Source: Reyranella aquatilis
GTDB lineage: Bacteria; Pseudomonadota; Alphaproteobacteria; Reyranellales; Reyranellaceae
DNA length: 64,000 nucleotides
Direction of reading: 5' to 3'
NCBI RefSeq assembly: GCF_020880995.1
Contig: NZ_JAJISD010000009.1
Location: 1 to 64,000, forward strand
Made by a program: the position numbers and the translations under genes. Shown one piece after another: positions 2,624 through 47,165 of this stretch (positions are counted from its first letter, which is position 1; every line of letters starts with the position of its first letter). Below the pieces are notes generated by a model. The model was not told the origin of the DNA. It ran no database searches and was given only the letters and a program-made list of their open reading frames with translations.

Positions 2624-3445
2624 ATGGCATACGAGACCGTCCTTTTCGACGTTTCGGAGCGGATCTGCACCATCACGCTGAACCGCCCGGAGAGGCTCAA
2701 TGCCTGGACACGGCAGATGCATCTCGACCTCAAGGACGCCATGCACAGGGCCGGCTCCGATCCGGACGTCCGGGCGATCATCCTGACCGGCGCCGGCCGC
2801 GGCTTCTGCGCCGGCGCGGACATGGGCGGCCTGCAGGCGATCGGCTCCGGCGCCTCGGCCGACCGGTCGACGAAGGCCCAGGACGGCCTGCCGGGCGGCA
2901 GCACGCTGCCCGAATTCAGGATGAACTACTCCTATTTTCCGGCGATCCCGAAGTTCATCATCGCCGCCATCAACGGCCCGGCGGCGGGCCTCGGCATGGT
3001 CATCCCGCTCTATGCGGACCTCCGGTTCGCAGCGGAATCGGCGGTCTTCACGACCGCTTTCGCCCAGCGCGGCCTGATTGCCGAGCACGGGGTGAGCTGG
3101 CTCCTGCCGCGGCTGGTCGGCCTGCCGACGGCGCTTGACCTGCTCTGCTCGGCCCGCAAGTTCCGGGCGCCGGAGGCGCTGGCCATGGGACTGGTGAACC
3201 GGGTCATTCCCGACGACAGGCTGCTGGCCGAGGCCCGCGCCTATGCCACCCTGCTCGCCAACACCGTCTCGCCCCGCTCGGTCGCGGTGATGAAGCGCCA
3301 GCTCTGGGAGGCCCAGTTCCAGACCCTCGCCGAGGCGACGGTCCAGGCCAACCACGAAATGGAACTCTCGTTCCAGACCTCGGACTTCAAGGAAGGTGTC
3401 GCGCACTATCTCGAAAAGCGCGCGGCGCGATTTACGGGGAAGTAG
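2624..3445 (+). CDS. enoyl-CoA hydratase/isomerase family protein
   Basis: A 273-residue crotonase-fold protein. The start ATG at 2624 is preceded by a perfect AGGAGG at 2608-2613 and gives the usual N-terminus. ITLNRPERLNA, the oxyanion-hole segment GAGRGFCAGADM and a second conserved block ending SWLLPRLVG with an AEHG glutamate are present. It probably hydrates or isomerises an enoyl-CoA in cytosolic acyl-CoA catabolism. It is similar along its length to the minus-strand hydratase at 6333; the two paralogues bracket an ABC importer. The particular acyl-CoA is unknown. Confidence 0.9.
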   Translation: MAYETVLFDVSERICTITLNRPERLNAWTRQMHLDLKDAMHRAGSDPDVRAIILTGAGRGFCAGADMGGLQAIGSGASADRSTKAQDGLPGGSTLPEFRMNYSYFPAIPKFIIAAINGPAAGLGMVIPLYADLRFAAESAVFTTAFAQRGLIAEHGVSWLLPRLVGLPTALDLLCSARKFRAPEALAMGLVNRVIPDDRLLAEARAYATLLANTVSPRSVAVMKRQLWEAQFQTLAEATVQANHEMELSFQTSDFKEGVAHYLEKRAARFTGK

Positions 3446-3458
3446 CCCCCATCATGTT

Positions 3459-3558
3459 CCTCTACCCCGACAAGGGGGAGAGGTTAGGCGAGAGAGTTAC
3501 ACATGGCGAGAGTGTGCGCCGCCGCCTCACCCAGCCTCTCGCCCTAGCGGCGGAGAGG
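3459..3558. repeat. dispersed palindromic repeat, second family
   Basis: Imperfect inverted repeat just after the enoyl-CoA hydratase stop. The left arm holds TTCCTCTACCCCGACAAGGGGGAGAGG and the right arm CCTCTCGCCCTAGCGGCGGAGAGG; each arm is itself a small hairpin. A cleaner copy of the same family is at 31388-31478. It lies between convergent genes and may act as a transcript-end structure. Confidence 0.6.
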
Positions 3559-7554: not shown

Positions 7555-8595
7555 TCAACCCTGATCTTGCGGCGGCTCGCGATGCGGCTGGCCGGCCGCC
7601 CGCGTATCGACCTTCGGCCGTTCGATGTCGAGCCCCCCCGGGCCGGGACCGCGACGGAAAACTTCGCGCACCAGGTATTGCGGCTTGCGGTTCACGGCCA
7701 GGAACATGCTGCCGAGATACTCGCCGATCATGCCGATCACGAGCAGTTGCACGCCCGCCAGCACGAGCACGGCGACCATCAGCGACGCCCAGCCCTGGGG
7801 CGGCTTGTCGGAGAGGATCGCCTCGATGATCGTGATGCCGGCGGCCAGCGCGCCCAGGGCGCCAAACACCAGTCCGAGAATCGTCGCCCCGCGCAGCGGC
7901 ATTACAGAGAAATTGAGGAACATCGCTAGCCACAGGCGCAGCAGCCGACGCAGCGTGTAGTTCGACCGCCCTTCGGCCCGTGGCAGGTGATTGACCTGCA
8001 ACCGGCTCACGTTCTGGGTGATCTGGAAGATGAGCCCGTCGACGTAAGGAGACGGCCCCTCGTAGCTGGCGGTGACTCGCTCGACCAGGAACCGGGACAT
8101 GCAGCGAAAGCTCGAGAGGTAAAGGCCGGGCGGCTTGTCGATCAGCTTGTCGGCGCACCAGTTGGTGAAACGGCTGCCGAGGTTGCGCCAGGCCGCGTGC
8201 TTCTTTTCCTCGTAGTAGGTGTAGACCGCGTCGTAGTTACCGTCGCGGGCATGCTCGAACAGGCGCCGTACTTCCTCCGGCGGGTTCTGCAGGTCGTCGT
8301 CCATGGTGATCGTGTAGGCGCCACGTGCCCGCGCGAGACCGGCCATGACCGCATTGTGCTCGCCGAAATTGCGGCTGAGGCTCAGCACGATCACCGGCGC
8401 ACCGGGCTGTGCGGCCAACTGCTTGCAGACGTCGAGGCTGTTGTCGGGACTGCCGTCGACCACCAGCACGATCTCCAGCGCGCCGTCGATTTCGAGCGCC
8501 CGAAGCGCCGCGACGAGGTCGCCGACGGTGGCGGCGCCGTTGTAGACCGGAACGACGATGGAGAGCGCCGGTGCGGTTTCCGAAGTCTCAAGCAT
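7555..8595 (-). CDS. GT2 family glycosyltransferase (ArnC/GtrB/DPM1-like)
   Basis: A 346-residue protein: N-terminal GT-A domain beginning SIVVPVYNGA, nucleotide-sugar site LVVDGSPDNS, catalytic acidic motif MDDDLQNPPEE, and two hydrophobic C-terminal helices (about residues 235-255 and 268-290). This is the layout of enzymes that move a sugar from UDP/GDP onto polyprenyl phosphate at the inner membrane. Its ATG at 8595 overlaps the methyltransferase stop by 8 nt, so translation is coupled. The neighbours (flippase-like protein, methyltransferase, GT-C-like protein) fit a lipid-linked sugar modification pathway. The sugar is unknown. Confidence 0.88.
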   Translation of the reverse strand: MLETSETAPALSIVVPVYNGAATVGDLVAALRALEIDGALEIVLVVDGSPDNSLDVCKQLAAQPGAPVIVLSLSRNFGEHNAVMAGLARARGAYTITMDDDLQNPPEEVRRLFEHARDGNYDAVYTYYEEKKHAAWRNLGSRFTNWCADKLIDKPPGLYLSSFRCMSRFLVERVTASYEGPSPYVDGLIFQITQNVSRLQVNHLPRAEGRSNYTLRRLLRLWLAMFLNFSVMPLRGATILGLVFGALGALAAGITIIEAILSDKPPQGWASLMVAVLVLAGVQLLVIGMIGEYLGSMFLAVNRKPQYLVREVFRRGPGPGGLDIERPKVDTRAAGQPHREPPQDQG

Positions 8596-9328
8596 CACGT
8601 ACCGCCACGATCATGAGGGAACCGCCGAAGGGAAGGTTGAGGCCTGCGCCGATGGCGGCGCGCTCGATGGCGAGCGCTGTCGAGAAAATCGCGTCCAGCC
8701 ATCTGGGATAGTCGCGCACGTCGCTTTCGGCGTCGCCGCGTTCGACCAGTCGATGGAGAAGCATCAGGGGAAACAACAGCGTGTTCCAATAGCTCGCGCG
8801 AACGACGCGGAAGCCGTGGGCGGAGACGAGGGCGCGGGCCTCCCCGCGGGTGAAGCGGCGGGCATTGTGGACGCGCCTGTCGTGCGCCGACAGCATCCAG
8901 GAATAGGCAGGCAGATTGAAGACGGCGATCGCGCCGGGCCCAAGGCAGCGATGCGCCTCTTTCAGGGCACGCGCGGGATCCACGTTGGCATGGCAGAGCA
9001 CATCGAGCGAGACATAGGCCGCGAGGACACCGTCGCGCAGCGGCAATTCGTTCACCGAACCCGAGACGACGGGGCGAGCGGCCTTCGTCCTCGCCATGGA
9101 GGCTGCGACGGGATCGTATTCGAGGCCGATGGCGGGCCGCCCCGCCACGTCCGGCCCCAGAAGACGCAACATCCCCCCGGTGCCGCATCCCGCGTCCAGC
9201 ACGGAACCGGCGGCCCCGGAACGCGCCAGCGAGCGGGCAAGCTGCCCGGACGCCAGTCGGCGCAGGCCGCGATACCACCACATGCGGTCCTCGACCGCAT
9301 GCATCAGCTCGTACTCGGCCCGTTCCAT
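8588..9328 (-). CDS. class I SAM-dependent methyltransferase
   Basis: About 246 residues if started at the ATG at 9328 (MERAEYELMHAVEDRMWWYRG). The VEDRMWWYRGLRRL block is a common beginning in this family. A TTG at 9421 would add 31 residues but would overlap the divergent gene at 9391. SAM-binding motif I is VLDAGCGTGG, followed by the acidic GLEYDP. The substrate may be a sugar or lipid given coupling to the glycosyltransferase downstream (8 nt overlap). The start choice is uncertain; the domain call is firm. Confidence 0.83.
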   Translation of the reverse strand: MERAEYELMHAVEDRMWWYRGLRRLASGQLARSLARSGAAGSVLDAGCGTGGMLRLLGPDVAGRPAIGLEYDPVAASMARTKAARPVVSGSVNELPLRDGVLAAYVSLDVLCHANVDPARALKEAHRCLGPGAIAVFNLPAYSWMLSAHDRRVHNARRFTRGEARALVSAHGFRVVRASYWNTLLFPLMLLHRLVERGDAESDVRDYPRWLDAIFSTALAIERAAIGAGLNLPFGGSLMIVAVRDA

Positions 9329-31538: not shown

Positions 31539-31627
31539 GCCCCCGTGGCGGAATTGGTAGACGCCAGCGACTTAAAATCGCTTGATCCGAAAGGATCGTG
31601 CCGGTTCGAGTCCGGCCGGGGGCACCA
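31539..31627 (+). tRNA. tRNA-Leu (anticodon UAA)
   Basis: An 89-nt class II tRNA with encoded CCA. The acceptor arms GCCCCCG and CGGGGGC pair fully. The D arm contains GGTAGACGC. The anticodon arm AGCGA-CTTAAAA-TCGCT carries TAA. A long variable arm (TGATCCGAAAGGATCG) marks a leucine tRNA, and the T arm is GCCGGTTCGAGTCCGGC. It reads UUA/UUG. DNA of different base composition begins a few hundred bases downstream. Confidence 0.97.
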
Positions 31628-39827: not shown

Positions 39828-39867
39828 TTGCCGTCAATGACAGCACTTGTGCAGGGGAGACACTGGT

Positions 39868-40185
39868 ATGGCTTGGATAGCTCTTTTTCTGGCAGGACTG
39901 TGCGAAATCGGCTGGCCGGTCGGGCTCAAGCTCGGCTGGACCGACGAGGGAATCCGTCCAGGGTGGCTGCTTCTGGCGATCGTTGCCATCGTGGTGAGCG
40001 GCGCGCTGCTTATGTGGGCACAGCGTACCATCCCGATGGGCACCGCCTACGCGATCTGGACCGGAATCGGCGCCGTCGGCGCCTTCACCGTGGGCATCCT
40101 GGCGTTCGGCGATACCGCGTCGACGATCCGTATCGTCTCGATCGCCCTCATCGTGGCCGGCATCGTCGGCCTCAAGCTGGCCTGA
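39868..40185 (+). CDS. SMR-family transporter, SugE/Gdx-like
   Basis: A 105-residue four-helix protein starting MAWIALFLAGLCEIGWPVGLKLGW, with the essential membrane Glu at about residue 13. The third helix region RTIPMGTAYAIWTGIGAVGAF is characteristic of SugE-type members, known as guanidinium exporters in studied species. It works as an antiparallel dimer in the inner membrane. No guanidine riboswitch could be recognised upstream. The next gene, an SDR, follows after 11 bp. Confidence 0.9.
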   Translation: MAWIALFLAGLCEIGWPVGLKLGWTDEGIRPGWLLLAIVAIVVSGALLMWAQRTIPMGTAYAIWTGIGAVGAFTVGILAFGDTASTIRIVSIALIVAGIVGLKLA

Positions 40186-41562: not shown

Positions 41563-41755
41563 TAGAGCCGTTCCAGTTCACATTGACCCACTTACCTCAT
41601 CCTGAGGAGTGCTGCGGAGCAGCGCGTCTCGAAGGATGGGCAACAGGCAAGGTGCGCGTTCCCACCCTTCGAGACGCATCGCTGCGCGATGCTCCTCAGG
41701 GTGAGGTCGTTGTTTGAATGTTCGGCTTGATTCAATCTCGCCCAGAAGCGCTCTA
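41563..41755. repeat. MITE-like inverted-repeat element, copy 2
   Basis: A 193-bp element almost identical to 15475-15666 in the same orientation: left end TAGAGCCGTTCCAG, REP core at about 41596-41706, right end CCCAGAAGCGCTCTA. It lies between the NUDIX stop and the DoxX-family gene; its terminal CTA is the complement of the DoxX stop codon TAG. Near-identity with copy 1, some 26 kb away, suggests recent spread or gene conversion. Confidence 0.72.
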
Positions 41756-42178
41756 GCGGCGAAGCTCGCGCAGGCGCCCCGCGAAGGCGCATGCCATCAG
41801 GCCGCCGATCAGCGAGATATGCTCCATGGCGACGCGGAAGTGCGGCGTGCGGGCGGGCTCCTGCATCGTCCAGAATGGATGGGCGAGCAGGATGGCGACC
41901 ACCAGGAAGCCGCTCAGGATCCCGCAGCCCAGCCACAGCCAGCGATCGAGCAGGATCATCAGGGAGCCGATCAGCAGGGTCGCGACCAGGACGATGTTGA
42001 GAACGCCCGCCGGTTCGAGCTTGAGCGACTTCAGTTCGGCGACGCTGTGCTGGAATTCGATCAGGTGCGCGAGGCCGGCGCTCCAGAACACGAAGGTCAG
42101 GACCAGCCGCGCCAAAAACCAACCGATGCCGCTGTCCAGAAAGGCTGCGATGGCGCGCGGCGTGTCGTTCCGACCCAT
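41753..42178 (-). CDS. DoxX-family membrane protein
   Basis: A 141-residue protein with four hydrophobic helices and the DoxX-like first-helix segment RLVLTFVFWSAGLAHLIEF. Members occur in oxidative stress and thiosulfate:quinone oxidoreductase contexts; the role here is unknown. The ATG at 42178 is preceded by a purine-rich GGGGGAGATAG. Divergent from the copper cluster by about 130 bp. Its TAG stop is contributed by the end of the repeat element. Confidence 0.8.
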   Translation of the reverse strand: MGRNDTPRAIAAFLDSGIGWFLARLVLTFVFWSAGLAHLIEFQHSVAELKSLKLEPAGVLNIVLVATLLIGSLMILLDRWLWLGCGILSGFLVVAILLAHPFWTMQEPARTPHFRVAMEHISLIGGLMACAFAGRLRELRR

Positions 42179-42310
42179 TGTGTCTATCTCCCCCGGAAGT
42201 GTGCGGCGGACCAATATCCCGCCGGAAGGTCCTTGCCTAGACGGTCGGTGTCGCCGGCAGCCCGGGCGACAAGCTGTCCCCTTTCGCCGTCGTCGCATTT
42301 GGGCATAAAT

Positions 42311-42709
42311 ATGGCGATGGTTCGCAAACGACCCGATCAGGGCTGGCGCGCGGCGGCATTTGCCGTCGCCCTGTTTGCGATCACGCTCAACTTCCTGCAG
42401 CCCCTGGCCCACGCCGTCCTGATGCGCGACGGCGGTCCAGAGGCCGCCGCCAGGACCTGGGGCGTCTTCTGCCTCCCGACCGTCGACGAGGATGGGTCGC
42501 AGGCACCCGGCCAGACGGCCGGCAAGCTCCACGAATGCTGCCTTGGCCTCGCACACGCGCCCGTGCTCGGGGAGCCCGCAACCACCGCTTTCCTGCTTGT
42601 CGAGCCCGCCGCCGAGGCGATCGTCTTCGCTGGCAACGACGAGGCCCTGGCCCCCGTCGGCATCCGCGACGGGCCCCACCGACCGCGCGGCCCCCCTTCC
42701 CACGTCTGA
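42311..42709 (+). CDS. DUF2946-like small protein
   Basis: A 132-residue protein with an N-terminal hydrophobic helix (about residues 13-35) and a central HECCLGLAHAP cysteine/histidine motif similar to the metal-ligand-like motif of DUF2946 proteins. Those proteins are often found beside copper-related TonB receptors and PCuAC genes, as here. A second ATG six bases later is possible. The family assignment is by pattern and context, so moderate. Confidence 0.6.
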   Translation: MAMVRKRPDQGWRAAAFAVALFAITLNFLQPLAHAVLMRDGGPEAAARTWGVFCLPTVDEDGSQAPGQTAGKLHECCLGLAHAPVLGEPATTAFLLVEPAAEAIVFAGNDEALAPVGIRDGPHRPRGPPSHV

Positions 42710-42720
42710 CGTCTGAAACC

Positions 42721-42744
42721 GCGACGCGCCTTGCCGTGCGTCGC
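42721..42744 (+). promoter_or_regulatory. hairpin in the leader of the TonB receptor gene
   Basis: GCGACGCGC pairs with GTGCGTCGC around a CTTGCC loop (one G-T pair), ending 29 nt before the receptor ATG and followed by a mixed T-rich TTCGTCCGTCTTTCG. It could be a weak attenuator or mRNA stabiliser. It is too small for a cobalamin riboswitch. Confidence 0.35.
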
Positions 42745-42773
42745 GTTCGTCCGTCTTTCGTGGGGAGATTTTC

Positions 42774-44984
42774 ATGCTGTCCGTACGCGCGGCCACAGGC
42801 GCCGCCTTTGCAATCCTGGCCCTCATCCCGACTCTTGCGCGGGCGCAGACCGCGCCGACCATCGTGGCCCCGGTCGGTGCACCCGCCACCGATCCTGCCG
42901 CACCGCCCGCCAACACTTCACCGGTGACGATGGCGCCGGTCACTGTCAGTGCCGGCCGCGGATCGAGCCTCGACAATCTCGACGTCAGCACCACGGTGAT
43001 GACGCGCGAGCAGATCCAGAACAGCCCGGAGACCGGTGTCGACCAGATCGTGAACCGCATTCCGGGCGTGTGGCTGCCCAACATCCCGACCGGCCAGCTC
43101 CACCCGACCGCCCAGCCGGTGAACATCCGCGGCTTCGGCACGAGCACCACCATCAACACCCTGGTCATGGTCGACGGCGTGCCGGTCAACGATCCCTACT
43201 TCCGGACCATGAACTGGAGCGCCATCCCCAAGAACTCGGTCGAGCGCATCGAGGTCATCCGCGGCGGTGGTGCCACCAGCCTGTGGGGCAACATGGCGAT
43301 GGGTGGCGTGATCAACATCATCACGCGCCAGCCCGAGAAGACCGGCGCCTCAGCCGACGTGAGCTACGGCAGCTACAACAGCTCGACCGCCGAAGCCGCC
43401 GCAAGCTACGTCATCAGCGACAAGGCCAGGATGGGCCTGTCGTACAATCACGCGCAGAGTTCGGGCTACAACCTCACGCCCGCACAATATCGAAACGTCA
43501 ATCTCGTGCCGACAGCCTCAAAGGCCGACAACGTGGCCGCCAACGTCTACTTGGCGCCCAATGAAAGCCTCACGCTGTTCGCCAAGGCCTACTGGAACCA
43601 GGCCTACGAGGACGGGCTGGTCTGGCAGTTCGCGCACAACAACTGGTCGACCTACCGGCTGCTGGCCGGCGGCAGCTACAAGTTCAGCGAGAACCAGTCG
43701 CTGAACTTCAGCGGCTGGGTGAGCGGCGGCTCGTTCGGCACCATCAACGTGGCAAATGGCGGTTACACGCTGAACAACACCACCGCCACCAACCAGTTCG
43801 TCAGCCAGATCGAAGGAGCGCCCAATTCCGACATCGGCGGCTCGGCCTTCTATGAGGCCAATTTCGGCCCTCTGCGCGACGTGAAGATCGGCATCGATGC
43901 GCGGCGCACCCTGGTCACCGACAGGAACAACCTCTATTCCGGCGTATCGGCCAATCCCACGACCTTCGTGGTCAACGGCGAGCACCGCTTCCAGGGCATC
44001 TTCGGCCAGGGCACCTACCGCTTCACCGGCATCCCGATCGACGTCACGGTCGGCGTCCGCGGCGACTTCTGGCAGGCGATGAATGCCAGCGTTCTGACCC
44101 AGAACTCCAGCACGCTCAACGTGGTACCCAATGCGAGCGCCTCGAGCTTCGATCCGCGCATCGGCCTGAAGTTCTATGCCAGCGACGAGTTGACCCTGCG
44201 CGCCGCGATCTATCGCAACTTCTCGGCGCCCGGCATGAACCAGATGTACCGCGTGTTCGCGAGCGGCACCGGCTACACCACCATCAATCCCAATCTTCAG
44301 CCGATGACCAATTTCGGCCAGGAGGTCGGGTTCGACTTCGTGTGGAAGAGCTTCAACCTCTCCGGCACCTACTTCAACAACAACCTGAACAACTTCATCG
44401 ACTTCATCACGGTCTGCAACACCAACCCCGCCTGCGCCGCACCCTATGTCTCGGCGGCCGGGCTCAGCCCCGCCTTCACGACGGTCCGCCAGTACCAGAA
44501 TGTCGGCAACGCCACCTTCCAGGGTGTCGAACTGATCGCGACATGGCAGCCGTTCGAGCAGCTGCGGCTGACCGGCGGCTTCACCCAGACCACGGCCTAT
44601 CTCACGAGTTCGGTGAACCCGACTCTCGTGCGCACCGGCGTGCAGCTCGGTCAGGTTCCGAACTACATGTTCACGGCCGGTGTCGAGTGGCGGCCGATCG
44701 AGAACCTCGTGCTCACGGCTGCGCTGAAGTCGTTCCCGCAATACTGGAACGACACCAACCACACCCAGTTGAACGATGGCGCGACCCTGATCGATCTCGG
44801 GCTGCGCTGGTCGCCGATGAAAGACGTCGATGTCTATGGCAGTATCCAGAACCTGACCAACGTCCAGTACCTGGCGCAGGGCTATACCCGCACTTCGTTC
44901 GAGGGCTCGACGGTCAATGCGTCGGCCATCCCGCAGCTCGGCATGCCGCTGACTGCGACCGCCGGCCTGAGGGTGAAGTTCTGA
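42774..44984 (+). CDS. TonB-dependent outer-membrane receptor, probably copper
   Basis: A 736-residue receptor. Signal peptide to about residue 24 (ending ARAQ), plug domain starting at VTVSAGRGSSLDNLDVS with NIRGFGTSTTINTLVMVDGVP, then the 22-strand barrel ending in a terminal Phe (AGLRVKF). It imports a metal or metal complex with TonB-ExbBD energy. The neighbours (DUF2946, PCuAC and a TlpA-like protein) point to copper; the ligand itself cannot be read from the sequence. The stop overlaps the next start by 1 nt. Confidence 0.87.
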   Translation: MLSVRAATGAAFAILALIPTLARAQTAPTIVAPVGAPATDPAAPPANTSPVTMAPVTVSAGRGSSLDNLDVSTTVMTREQIQNSPETGVDQIVNRIPGVWLPNIPTGQLHPTAQPVNIRGFGTSTTINTLVMVDGVPVNDPYFRTMNWSAIPKNSVERIEVIRGGGATSLWGNMAMGGVINIITRQPEKTGASADVSYGSYNSSTAEAAASYVISDKARMGLSYNHAQSSGYNLTPAQYRNVNLVPTASKADNVAANVYLAPNESLTLFAKAYWNQAYEDGLVWQFAHNNWSTYRLLAGGSYKFSENQSLNFSGWVSGGSFGTINVANGGYTLNNTTATNQFVSQIEGAPNSDIGGSAFYEANFGPLRDVKIGIDARRTLVTDRNNLYSGVSANPTTFVVNGEHRFQGIFGQGTYRFTGIPIDVTVGVRGDFWQAMNASVLTQNSSTLNVVPNASASSFDPRIGLKFYASDELTLRAAIYRNFSAPGMNQMYRVFASGTGYTTINPNLQPMTNFGQEVGFDFVWKSFNLSGTYFNNNLNNFIDFITVCNTNPACAAPYVSAAGLSPAFTTVRQYQNVGNATFQGVELIATWQPFEQLRLTGGFTQTTAYLTSSVNPTLVRTGVQLGQVPNYMFTAGVEWRPIENLVLTAALKSFPQYWNDTNHTQLNDGATLIDLGLRWSPMKDVDVYGSIQNLTNVQYLAQGYTRTSFEGSTVNASAIPQLGMPLTATAGLRVKF

Positions 44985-46177
44985 TGCGCGCACTGCTTGC
45001 CTTCGCAGCGTTTCTCCTGCTCGCCGGCCCTGCCGGCGCGCAGCATCAGCACCAGCACGGCAAGCCGGCCGCCGCGACACCGGAGGCCTTCACCGCGACG
45101 CCGGCCTTCGGGCCGGACGGCACGCTGTGGCTCGCCCGGGCCATGGCCGACCGGATCGTCGTCGTGCGCTCGACTGACCTGGGGAAGACCTTCTCCGAGC
45201 CGGTCGCCGTTACGCCCGAGCCGATGAACCTCGACTGGGGGCCCGACGCGCGGGCCCGCATCGTGGTCGACCCGAAGGGCGGCCTGGTCGTCACCTTCGC
45301 GATCTTCCAGGATCGCAACTTCAACGGACGCGCCTTCTACGCGCGTTCGAAGGACAACGGCGCGAGCTTCGGCAAGCCGCAGCCGATCACCGCCGATGCC
45401 ACCAGCCAGCGTTTCGAGACGGCGGCCGTCGATCCCTCGACGGGTCGCGTCTTCGCGACATGGCTCGACAAGCGCAACGGGCCGAAAGCCCGCGCCGCCG
45501 GCAAGCCCTATCCCGGCGCGGCGCTCGCCTATGCCTGGGAGGATGGCGAGGCAGGCTTCGGCCCGACCAGCATCGCCCTCGACAATACCTGCGAATGCTG
45601 CCGGCTCGGCGTCGCGTTCGCCGGCCCCGGCCGGCCGGCGGTGGTGTTCCGCAACATCTTCCCCGGCTCGATCCGCGACCATGGCGTCGTCACCTTCAAG
45701 GACGAGAAGACGCCGGGACCGGTGCGTCGCGTCAGCGCCGACGAGTGGAAGATCGAGGCCTGCCCGCATCATGGCCCTAGCCTAGCGATCCTGCCCGACG
45801 GCTCCTATCACGTCGCCTGGTTCACCGACGGCTCGGCGCGCAAGGGCCTGTTCTATGCCCGTGCCGATAATGGCGACACGCCGTTCGGCGCGCCGCGCGC
45901 GCTCTCCACCGCGAGGCGCCAGCCGGCCCGGCCGTATATTCTCGCCAATGGCACCGCGCTCCATCTTGTCTGGAAGGAATTCGACGGCACGAAGTCCACG
46001 GTGCGCTGGCAGGTGAGCCATGACAGTGGCCGCCAGTGGAGCGAACCGCGCACCGTCGCCGACACCGAGGATGCCTCCGACCATCCGCTGCTCGTCGCCC
46101 ATGCCGGCCGCGCCTATCTCTCGTGGCTCACCCAGGCCGACGGCTACCGCCTGATCCCGCTGGAGGACCAGCCATGA
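44984..46177 (+). CDS. secreted sialidase-fold (BNR-repeat) protein
   Basis: A 397-residue exported protein (signal MRALLAFAAFLLLAGPAGA, followed by a His-rich QHQHQHGK). The rest is a beta-propeller with Asp-box-like repeats: STDLGKTFSEP, SKDNGASFGKP and SHDSGRQWSEP. A CECC motif at about residues 204-207 and a HH pair in ACPHHG are unusual for sialidases and could bind metal. Translationally coupled on both sides (1-nt and 4-nt overlaps) within the copper-type operon, so a metal-handling role is more likely than sialic acid cleavage. Confidence 0.72.
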   Translation: MRALLAFAAFLLLAGPAGAQHQHQHGKPAAATPEAFTATPAFGPDGTLWLARAMADRIVVVRSTDLGKTFSEPVAVTPEPMNLDWGPDARARIVVDPKGGLVVTFAIFQDRNFNGRAFYARSKDNGASFGKPQPITADATSQRFETAAVDPSTGRVFATWLDKRNGPKARAAGKPYPGAALAYAWEDGEAGFGPTSIALDNTCECCRLGVAFAGPGRPAVVFRNIFPGSIRDHGVVTFKDEKTPGPVRRVSADEWKIEACPHHGPSLAILPDGSYHVAWFTDGSARKGLFYARADNGDTPFGAPRALSTARRQPARPYILANGTALHLVWKEFDGTKSTVRWQVSHDSGRQWSEPRTVADTEDASDHPLLVAHAGRAYLSWLTQADGYRLIPLEDQP

Positions 46178-46659
46178 AGCTTCATCGTCTCCTCCTCGCG
46201 CTGCTGCTTGCGGTCGCAGCGACCGGCGCCAAGGCCGCCGATCTCCAATCGTTCGGCCGGGGGAGCTGGTCCAAGCTGCGCGCCGCCCACGACGGCCAGC
46301 CGACCGTCATCCATTTCTGGGGACTGACCTGCGCACCCTGCCTCGTCGAGATGCCGGAATGGGGCAAGCTGAGTGCCGAGCGGCCCGATATGCGCCTTGT
46401 GATGATTGCGGCCGATCCGGTGCCGCAGGATCCCGCGCGCGTGAACGACATGTTGGCGCGCGCCGGTCTCGGCAAGGCCGAGAACTGGGCCTTCACCGAC
46501 CGCTTCAACGAGCGGCTGCGCTACGAGGTCGATCCCGCCTGGGCCGGCGAACTGCCGCGCACCCTGCTGATCGATCGCGACGGCAAGGAGACCGTGCTTG
46601 CCGGCGTAGCCGAACTCGCGGAGGTGCGGGCCTGGCTCGACGCCCAGAAGAAACGCTGA
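46174..46659 (+). CDS. TlpA-like periplasmic thioredoxin-fold protein
   Basis: A 161-residue protein with a signal peptide (to about residue 21) and a thioredoxin fold whose active site is Cys53-Ala-Pro-Cys56 in FWGLTCAPCLVEMPEW. A cis-Pro is present at ELPRTLLID. Such proteins reduce cysteine ligands of copper chaperones or cytochromes in the periplasm, fitting the adjacent PCuAC gene. ATGA overlap with the upstream gene. Confidence 0.88.
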   Translation: MKLHRLLLALLLAVAATGAKAADLQSFGRGSWSKLRAAHDGQPTVIHFWGLTCAPCLVEMPEWGKLSAERPDMRLVMIAADPVPQDPARVNDMLARAGLGKAENWAFTDRFNERLRYEVDPAWAGELPRTLLIDRDGKETVLAGVAELAEVRAWLDAQKKR

Positions 46660-46691
46660 TCACCCGAATTCATTCATCAGGAGCACGTACC

Positions 46692-47165
46692 ATGTTCGCC
46701 CGTCGCCTCATTCTCGCCGCCGCCGTTTCTCTCCTCACCGTCCCGGCGATGGCCCAGGACTACAAGCTCGGTTCGCTCGAGATCACTGCGCCATGGACCC
46801 GCGCCACCGCCCCGACCGCCCGCAGCGGCGGCGGCTTCATGACGATCACCAACAAGGGCACCACCGCCGACCGGCTGGTTTCCGCCCGCAGCACCGTGTC
46901 CGACAAGGTCGAGATCCACGAGATGCAGATGGACGGCAGCGTCATGCGCATGCGCGAACTGGCGAAGGGCCTCGACATCCCCCCCGGCGCGACCGTCATG
47001 CTCAAGCCCGGCAGCTATCACATCATGTTCATGGAACTGAAGGCGCCGCTCGCGAAGGACGCCAAGGTGCCGGTCACGCTGGTCTTCGAGAAGGCCGGCA
47101 GCATCGACGTGCAACTCGATGTCCAGGCGATGGGCGCCATGCCGCACGGGCACGGGAAGAACTAG
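46692..47165 (+). CDS. copper chaperone PCuAC
   Basis: A 157-residue periplasmic protein with a signal peptide ending PAMAQ. The Cu(I) site residues His76, Met87, His110 and Met112 follow the PCuAC H-x(10)-M-x(~22)-HxM layout, in DKVEIHEMQM and KPGSYHIMFMEL. PCuAC proteins deliver copper to the CuA site of cytochrome oxidase, often with a Sco- or TlpA-type thioredoxin, matching the gene just upstream. C-terminal HGHGKN adds histidines. Confidence 0.92.
   Translation: MFARRLILAAAVSLLTVPAMAQDYKLGSLEITAPWTRATAPTARSGGGFMTITNKGTTADRLVSARSTVSDKVEIHEMQMDGSVMRMRELAKGLDIPPGATVMLKPGSYHIMFMELKAPLAKDAKVPVTLVFEKAGSIDVQLDVQAMGAMPHGHGKN

Follow-up and report, generated by a model that had tools for sequence, protein, structure and literature searches.

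A DUF2946-headed, probable copper-uptake operon of Reyranella aquatilis that carries a four-cysteine propeller and a TlpA-like thioredoxin

The route that copper takes from an outer-membrane transporter to the chaperones of the oxidases is poorly known, and the papers that characterise CrtA, TccA, and CrpH date only from 2025-2026. Operons that are headed by a DUF2946 gene and regulated by copper, such as cruR-crtA-crpH of Bordetella pertussis and pcuABCDE of Bradyrhizobium japonicum, are an established kind. Here we describe a five-gene operon at positions 42311-47165 of a 64,000-nucleotide stretch of Reyranella aquatilis DNA (contig NZ_JAJISD010000009.1, positions 1 to 64,000; the whole stretch is called the window below), in which a beta-propeller protein (PROP) with four invariant cysteines and a TlpA-like thioredoxin are encoded between a TonB-dependent transporter (TBDT) and the copper chaperone PCuAC. 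The kind of operon is known, and it possibly holds a new class of protein. Our explanation, to which we give a probability of about 0.5, is that this is a copper-starvation uptake operon with a thiol-dependent copper module made of the propeller and the thioredoxin. A conserved two-gene module placed at this gap in the route, which has an invariant four-Cys site and a thioredoxin of its own, makes this part of the route directly testable, and if the explanation is true it supplies a function for a group of proteins currently annotated as sialidases.

Passages of the CruR paper report that DUF2946 genes head operons with copper functions, that in B. pertussis the nascent chain of CruR, which carries a C-terminal RAPP, senses copper via a CxxC motif, and that a cruR homologue heads the copper-starvation oxidase operon of B. 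japonicum (PMC9426467). In B. pertussis the copper-sensing leader is followed by the copper TBDT gene crtA and by crpH, which encodes a periplasm-facing handling protein of the PepSY_TM family, and the system is tied to heme-copper oxidases. CrpH has been proposed to be a periplasmic copper reductase (PMC13038864), and a PepSY_TM gene is reported to be adjacent in >75% of the loci of the CrtA subfamily. The pcuABCDE operon consists of a cruR-homologous leader, the TonB receptor PcuB, and the PCuAC-like PcuC, in that order, followed by YcnI- and CopCD-type genes; one review calls PcuA PCuAC-like, at odds with a DUF2946 PcuA (PMC6696091). In cutFOG of Rhodobacter capsulatus, a DUF2946 leader with a proline-rich end also controls downstream copper genes, but there it controls a multicopper oxidase, whose production copper raises rather than lowers. 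Caulobacter vibrioides requires the TonB receptor TccA, together with the PCuAC protein PccA, for the copper supply of its aa3 oxidase, and the passages on this system mention no propeller (PMC12617631).

The operon and its described relatives

The five genes, and the gap that may hold a control region, are as follows (aa, amino acids).

42311..42709, + strand: DUF2946/CruR-like leader gene, 132 aa, first gene of the operon; Pfam DUF2946 32.0 bits against a cut-off of 23.7
42710..42773, no strand: 64-nt gap between the CruR-like gene and the TBDT gene; possible control region
42774..44984, + strand: TonB-dependent outer-membrane transporter, 736 aa; Pfam Plug 80.2 bits, TonB barrel 140.3 bits
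44984..46177, + strand: PROP, four-cysteine seven-bladed beta-propeller according to model and alignment, 397 aa, signal-peptide-like N-terminus
46174..46659, + strand: TlpA/ResA-like thioredoxin, 161 aa, signal-peptide-like N-terminus, kept CxxC; 4-nt overlap with PROP
46692..47165, + strand: PCuAC periplasmic copper chaperone, 157 aa; Pfam PCuAC 138.5 bits against a cut-off of 29.4

The initial annotation of this region, made from the sequence alone, had described these genes as joined by overlaps or short gaps, and the recomputed gene ends and the family matches bear this out: all five are on the + strand, at intergenic distances of 64, -1 (TGATG), -4 (ATGA), and 32 nt in order. Its designation as a copper-uptake type operon is backed by the families and by their context, with a DUF2946 leader as in the copper-repressed operon of B. 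pertussis and the copper-starvation operon of B. japonicum, and with PCuAC last. We consider it very probable that this is a DUF2946-headed copper-uptake operon, and the linkage to copper by genomic context is well supported. The window shares the order of leader, TonB receptor, and PCuAC with pcuABCDE, but it adds the propeller and the thioredoxin between the last two and has no YcnI or CopCD gene after PCuAC (none was recognised by eye among the window's open reading frames (ORFs) past 47165); the five-gene make-up of pcuABCDE suggests that the B. japonicum operon is without the propeller-thioredoxin module. Compared with B. pertussis, the window has the propeller and thioredoxin where the PepSY_TM gene crpH stands third, and its leader has HECC where CruR has CxxC. 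No PepSY_TM gene stands beside the window TBDT, both PepSY_TM matches of R. aquatilis being on other contigs.

Two short motifs characterise the leader, which is the single DUF2946 match listed for the genome.

42530..42541, + strand: HECC, residues 74-77 of the leader; CxxC in other CruR-like proteins
42686..42697, + strand: RGPP near the leader C-terminus, at an offset equal to that of RAPP in B. pertussis CruR

RGPP lies three residues before the C-terminus and is one letter off RAPP, which itself occurs at loci L041, L043, L047, and L108. From the second Cys of HECC to RGPP there are 48 residues, compared with 45-49 in 13 relatives measured and ~45 expected for CruR. Because the first Cys of CxxC is missing, we call the leader CruR-like and not CruR. 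Relatives from outside Reyranella carry CAMC, CPVC, CPMC, and the like at this position, and five Reyranella leaders (those of L034 and the four loci just named) have HECC or HGCC and so keep H-x-C-C, which is possibly an altered copper site of a nascent-chain sensor. In 12 of 15 genomes, R. aquatilis included, the in-operon DUF2946 match exceeds the Pfam cut-off. We note that one alphaproteobacterial locus (L095 of genome G319) has two CruR-like leaders, at 2107-2487 and 3085-3480, of which one precedes PCuAC and the other the TBDT, as though a separate copper sensor served each of these genes; the second leader scores 21.6 bits, slightly below the cut-off. An RNA element in the operon was considered and rejected, in that Rfam at gathering threshold matched a tRNA alone, and no riboswitch, in the whole window.

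The chaperone carries a recognisable copper-site pattern.

46917..47027, + strand: PCuAC copper-site pattern HX10MX22HXM (H76, M87, H110, M112), by pattern match

Its spacing is one that we take to be that of B. japonicum PcuC. It does not match letter for letter the motif H(M)X10MX21HXM as printed in a passage of PMC12617631. R. aquatilis has a second PCuAC (C1), in the surroundings of which nothing related to copper was recognised. For the TBDT, a comparison with PDB gave four sequences at E<=1e-10, all of them chains of Cir or FecA. A conserved copper-ligand His was sought in it; none of the His, Met, and Cys residues of the window TBDT reaches 70% conservation across 22 aligned propeller-linked TBDTs, and for this reason no TBDT copper site is proposed.

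The propeller and its thioredoxin

The motifs that bear on a possible metal site in the propeller, and the active site of the thioredoxin, are listed below.

45041..45064, + strand: QHQHQHGK, residues 20-27, at the mature N-terminus as predicted with a crude cleavage rule
45590..45601, + strand: CECC, residues 203-206; Cys 203, 205, and 206 invariant in 27/27 homologues
45746..45775, + strand: WKIEACPHHG, residues 255-264 (ACPHHG is 259-264); W255, C260, and P261 invariant in 27/27, H262 kept in 23/27
46330..46341, + strand: CAPC active-site motif of the thioredoxin, residues 53-56

QHQHQHGK, CECC, and ACPHHG had been pointed out in the initial annotation, and all three are present. Our alignment comprises 22 nearer homologues (5 from Reyranella, the window included; median identity 40%) and 5 distant ones, to which the window protein is 22-24% identical. 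C203, C205, C206, C260, W255, P261, R223, and R231 are identical in all 27 sequences; the window propeller has just these four Cys, in the arrangement CxCC...CP, and because all four are invariant we regard the motifs as more than chance. At the N-terminus H25 is kept in 21 of the 22 nearer homologues and 22 of all 27, and the 25 residues that follow the predicted cleavage are richer in His and Met (10.7% versus 3.6%, in 21/22 rows), although the rows are related and some are miscut. The crude rule used for signal peptides and mature N-termini placed the site wrongly or missed it in at least 5 of 22 rows (none was assigned for L106), and the p-value of this enrichment, like that of the control described below, is too small because related genomes were treated as independent.

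The best Pfam match of the propeller is BNR_2 (PF13088), at 29.7 bits below the cut-off of 31.4, next to weaker matches; BNR_2 is over the cut-off in 5/6 homologues scanned, and neither Pfam nor NCBIfam gave a model more specific than BNR repeats for the propellers scanned. An AlphaFold2 model from 20 sequences has a mean pLDDT of 80.2 and a pTM of 0.82, and its strands, read from DSSP, form seven repeats, the last with three strands; the protein thus models as a seven-bladed Asp-box propeller. In a VIA comparison CylK (Z 29.0, rmsd 3.4, 345 residues) and PLL lectins (Z up to 28.7, rmsd 3.0, 309 residues) come out nearest; the list also holds the putative neuraminidase 4irt (25.8), rhamnose-glucuronate and ulvan lyases (25.8 and 23.9), and virginiamycin B lyase (22.2). 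Foldseek puts PLL lectins at the top and sialidases at rank 11 and lower. The likeness to CylK and the PLL-type lectins is one of fold (Z ~28-29) but comes with 10-14% identity, and to our knowledge neither is a copper protein. GH33 sialidases characteristically have a six-bladed propeller and a RIP motif with its arginine. This motif ([FY]RIP) is absent from 27/27 propeller homologues, so that the earlier label of a sialidase fold was too loose for a model of seven blades nearest to CylK and PLL lectins. By the strand order in the model, CECC and ACPHHG lie on one face, in the loops that lead into the first strands of two adjacent blades. With our own strand assignment, 12 of the 18 invariant residues in the loops of that face are of C/H/R/K/D/E/W type, compared with 3 of 11 for the other face.

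The thioredoxin keeps its CxxC in 15/15 aligned sequences. Its Pfam matches (Redoxin, AhpC-TSA, Thioredoxin) are all sub-threshold, and, although it is a periplasmic-type CxxC thioredoxin like B. japonicum TlpA and Bacillus ResA, it falls far below the NCBIfam cut-offs for TlpA (NF047696, 31.4 bits versus 230) and ResA (24 versus 170). PADLOC gave no match for either the propeller or the thioredoxin. AhpC_TSA genes are mentioned in a passage of the CruR paper as peroxide detoxifiers within DUF2946-headed operons (PMC9426467), and these may be the propeller-linked thioredoxins. The literature searched, mostly listings with few full texts, and with supplements, figures, and subscription papers outside its scope so that prior notice is possible, holds no mention of the propeller or of the propeller-thioredoxin module. 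The words sialidase, BNR, and propeller led to no mention of a window-type propeller in PMC9426467, PMC9973294, PMC12914433, and PMC13038864, nor did BNR and exo-alpha in PMC12617631. In PMC11561398, an archaeal sialidase-neuraminidase protein appears among polysaccharide genes, apart from the copper passage.

Inheritance of the transporter, propeller, and thioredoxin

Searches with the propeller at E<=0.001 (own genome counted; class and phylum by profile search) gave a match in 33/61 Reyranella genomes, 36/76 genomes of the order (all in one genus), 10/385 of the class, and 23/398 of the phylum. Taking a TBDT of 63% identity or more as close, 31 of the 61 Reyranella genomes have both the close TBDT and the propeller, 2 the propeller only, none the TBDT only, and 28 neither. 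The two propeller-only cases are G033, in which the gene lies ~1.4 kb from the start of its contig, and G019, in which the match is a 50-residue C-terminal fragment; in three further Reyranella genomes the sole TBDT is one of 29-32% identity and the propeller is absent. Outside the genus we read 15 divergent loci (L094-L107, 14 matches with E below 1e-80, and L054). A TlpA-like gene directly follows PROP in all 15, a TBDT lies just before it in 14 (the exception is L102), a leader ORF with an RxPP ending or a DUF2946 match is found in 12, and PCuAC is in the locus in 9. The initial annotation had suggested checking co-occurrence with both TonB receptors and PCuAC; the TBDT is indeed inherited together with the propeller, and the tie to PCuAC is looser. 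The correlation of evolutionary distances between PROP and TlpA is r 0.92 (15 loci; 0/2000 permutations), compared with 0.82 for PROP and PCuAC (9 loci) and 0.75 for PROP and TBDT (14 loci), other pairs also being significant; among the pairs compared, the co-evolution of PROP with TlpA is the tightest.

In L102 (2468-7721) a DUF2946 gene is followed by ExbB/ExbD/TonB-like genes (by eye), the propeller, and the thioredoxin, with no adjacent TBDT. Nine DUF2946 matches, seven of them over the cut-off, occur in its genome (G618), which also encodes a second CxCC propeller, a distant one, next to a TBDT. None of 15 propeller genomes has a PepSY_TM match within 30 kb of its main propeller locus on the same contig; the second G618 propeller has one ~3 kb upstream. 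In the betaproteobacterial L054, a sulfatase-like gene (7647-9272, by eye) follows the thioredoxin in place of PCuAC.

As a control for the link to the TBDT we took 11 loci of weaker hits, of which L142 was dropped because it has no propeller ORF; G336, G589, and G796 are not among them. Propellers with CxCC...CP stand beside a TBDT in 3/3 cases, and of those without CxCC 1/7 has a TBDT within 6 kb and 6/7 have none in the fetched stretch (Fisher p 0.03). G778 was excluded because its gene is probably broken (or misread): at L110 (5981-7041) a short propeller ORF without CxCC is divergent from a DUF2946-like ORF and a TBDT, with a separate CSCC ORF nearby.

The same set of genes can be followed in a Bradyrhizobium-like alphaproteobacterial genus (g270; name inferred; n=79, genomes of 4.3-10.4 Mb). 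Here 46 genomes have both TBDT and propeller, 1 the propeller only (a fragment at a contig end), none the TBDT only, and 32 neither, and by the listed coordinates the two matches are <=50 nt apart in 46/46. Defective copies occur, with an in-frame stop in G827 and G871 and a split over contigs in G885. A PCuAC match is present in all 79 genomes. Among 15 propeller-less PCuAC loci fetched, 14 read DUF2946-TBDT-PCuAC-YcnI-CopCD, some with extra short CopC-like ORFs, and L127 is without TBDT and YcnI. The ten propeller-bearing loci that were read all begin DUF2946-TBDT-propeller-TlpA, continue with PCuAC in 9 (not L134), and then have YcnI and CopCD in 5. The pcuABCDE-type layout therefore occurs with or without the propeller-thioredoxin pair, and in this genus TBDT-propeller-TlpA is an exchangeable cassette behind a CruR-like leader.

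In a tree, the propeller-linked TBDTs do not group as a single clade (0% of 200 bootstrap trees); because several long branches come together, the number of lineages is unsure. It follows that PROP-TlpA is the more constant unit and the transporter the variable one. The near-perfect linkage had prompted the idea that the propeller is a ligand-specific partner of one TBDT type, which was dropped as a general rule on this finding.

More distant homologues also have copper genes as neighbours. The propeller weakly matches 61 plasmid records; in all four examined, copper genes lie near the homologue, which keeps CxCC and W...CP. Three of these are Roseobacteraceae plasmids with copper oxidase, copper-binding protein, and azurin-like genes, and are not independent cases because the clusters are related; on the fourth, a Methylomagnum plasmid, the homologue adjoins CopC and lies within 5 kb of amoAB. 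A verrucomicrobial homologue follows the end of a CopA-type ATPase (a fragment whose best NCBIfam match, CopA, is below cut-off). Sialic acid loci, which the initial annotation had named as an outcome that would speak against copper, were not seen around the CxCC-bearing homologues; neighbours were assessed with operon HMMs, by visual inspection, and from the annotation of the records, with no nan-gene search. Taken as a whole, that first interpretation is partly supported.

A possible copper module and its alternatives

We infer the identity of the metal, its binding, the redox role with its flow of electrons, and the hand-over as follows. By analogy with B. pertussis CruR, the nascent DUF2946 protein would sense periplasmic copper and, at an abundant supply, shut down expression of the genes behind it. 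The TBDT would carry copper across the outer membrane, probably as a small chelate, to judge from its neighbours and from CrtA and TccA. The propeller and thioredoxin would act as one periplasmic module, in which the thioredoxin keeps C203, C205, C206, and C260 reduced and the propeller, aided by its His/Met-rich N-terminus, accepts incoming copper on one face as Cu(I), thereby reducing Cu(II) or stripping copper from the chelate. Cu(I) would then be handed to PCuAC and onward to the copper sites of the cytochrome oxidase. The task of keeping the propeller Cys reduced is proposed for the thioredoxin because CrpH is a proposed reductase, no PepSY_TM is nearby in the 15 propeller genomes, and B. 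japonicum TlpA reduces ScoI and CoxB ahead of copper loading (PMC6696091). The module would then be a periplasmic copper acceptor, possibly a reductase, in the place of CrpH. For a thiol-dependent copper role of the propeller we see even odds. More tentatively, the propeller might define a new class of copper protein, with seven blades and a Cu(I) site of four Cys (plus His) recharged by a thioredoxin, that serves as a soluble reductase or acceptor for copper from TonB-dependent transporters and replaces the heme-based PepSY_TM protein CrpH, sister forms with cytochromes c, CopC, and P-type ATPases serving other copper clusters of Proteobacteria and Verrucomicrobia.

Several observations weigh against this explanation. 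The module is dispensable, 28/61 Reyranella genomes being without it, and the 32/79 g270 genomes that lack it still have a PCuAC match. In the model, residues 256-259 are of low confidence, and the four Cys of a periplasmic protein could be plain disulfides. The window leader is without the first Cys of CxxC, and deletion of PcuB in B. japonicum is reported to have given no detectable phenotype (PMC12617631). The clusters around the distant plasmid homologues are resistance-like, with genes for multicopper oxidase, CusA, and P-type ATPase but no TlpA match, which fits detoxification too.

The propeller could instead handle the chelate, as a binding protein or lyase for the organic ligand of copper, and its Cys would then form structural disulfides that the thioredoxin makes or repairs. 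The nearest structures are ligand-binding or enzyme propellers (CylK, PLL lectins, lyases) and the loops of one face are richer in conserved polar residues, but a common fold proves no function, the propeller pairs with at least 2 deeply different TBDT lineages, which is odd for a ligand-specific protein, and the dedicated thioredoxin resembles reductants (ResA/TlpA) rather than oxidases; we consider this role unlikely. The resistance-like clusters raise a further alternative, in which the module protects from copper excess by periplasmic sequestration or oxidation and does not supply an oxidase. In addition to the copper genes described above, the Roseobacteraceae plasmids carry a P-type ATPase on two and a CusA-type RND on one, and the verrucomicrobial neighbour is a CopA-type ATPase end. 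In the window and its near relatives, however, a DUF2946 leader is combined with a TBDT and, in many cases, PCuAC, which is the layout of a starvation operon; we regard a defensive role as distinctly improbable.

The reduction of ScoI and CoxB by TlpA, and a homologue directly after a cytochrome c gene on 3/4 plasmids examined, would also agree with a general thiol or cytochrome-maturation role, with the propeller as a scaffold for the assembly of CuA or of a c-type cytochrome and an indirect contact with copper. The tight partner is nevertheless an outer-membrane transporter, and no oxidase, Sco, or Ccm gene was noticed in the operons, in which no model search was aimed at them; we hold such a role to be quite improbable. 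A sialidase or other glycan enzyme that shares the operon by chance is scarcely credible. The BNR/Asp-box repeats, the sialidases in the Foldseek list, and the annotation of plasmid homologues as "sialidase family protein" would suit it, but we rejected a sialidase identity on the missing RIP motif, the seven strand repeats of the model, and the copper neighbours, which the homologues have on all four plasmids examined.

The sole tRNA found in the window is a tRNA-Leu (TAA) at 31539-31627. By eye, 39847-40185 encodes a SugE/Gdx-like small multidrug resistance protein, and ~41753-42180 on the - strand is the frame of a DoxX-like membrane protein, divergent from the operon.

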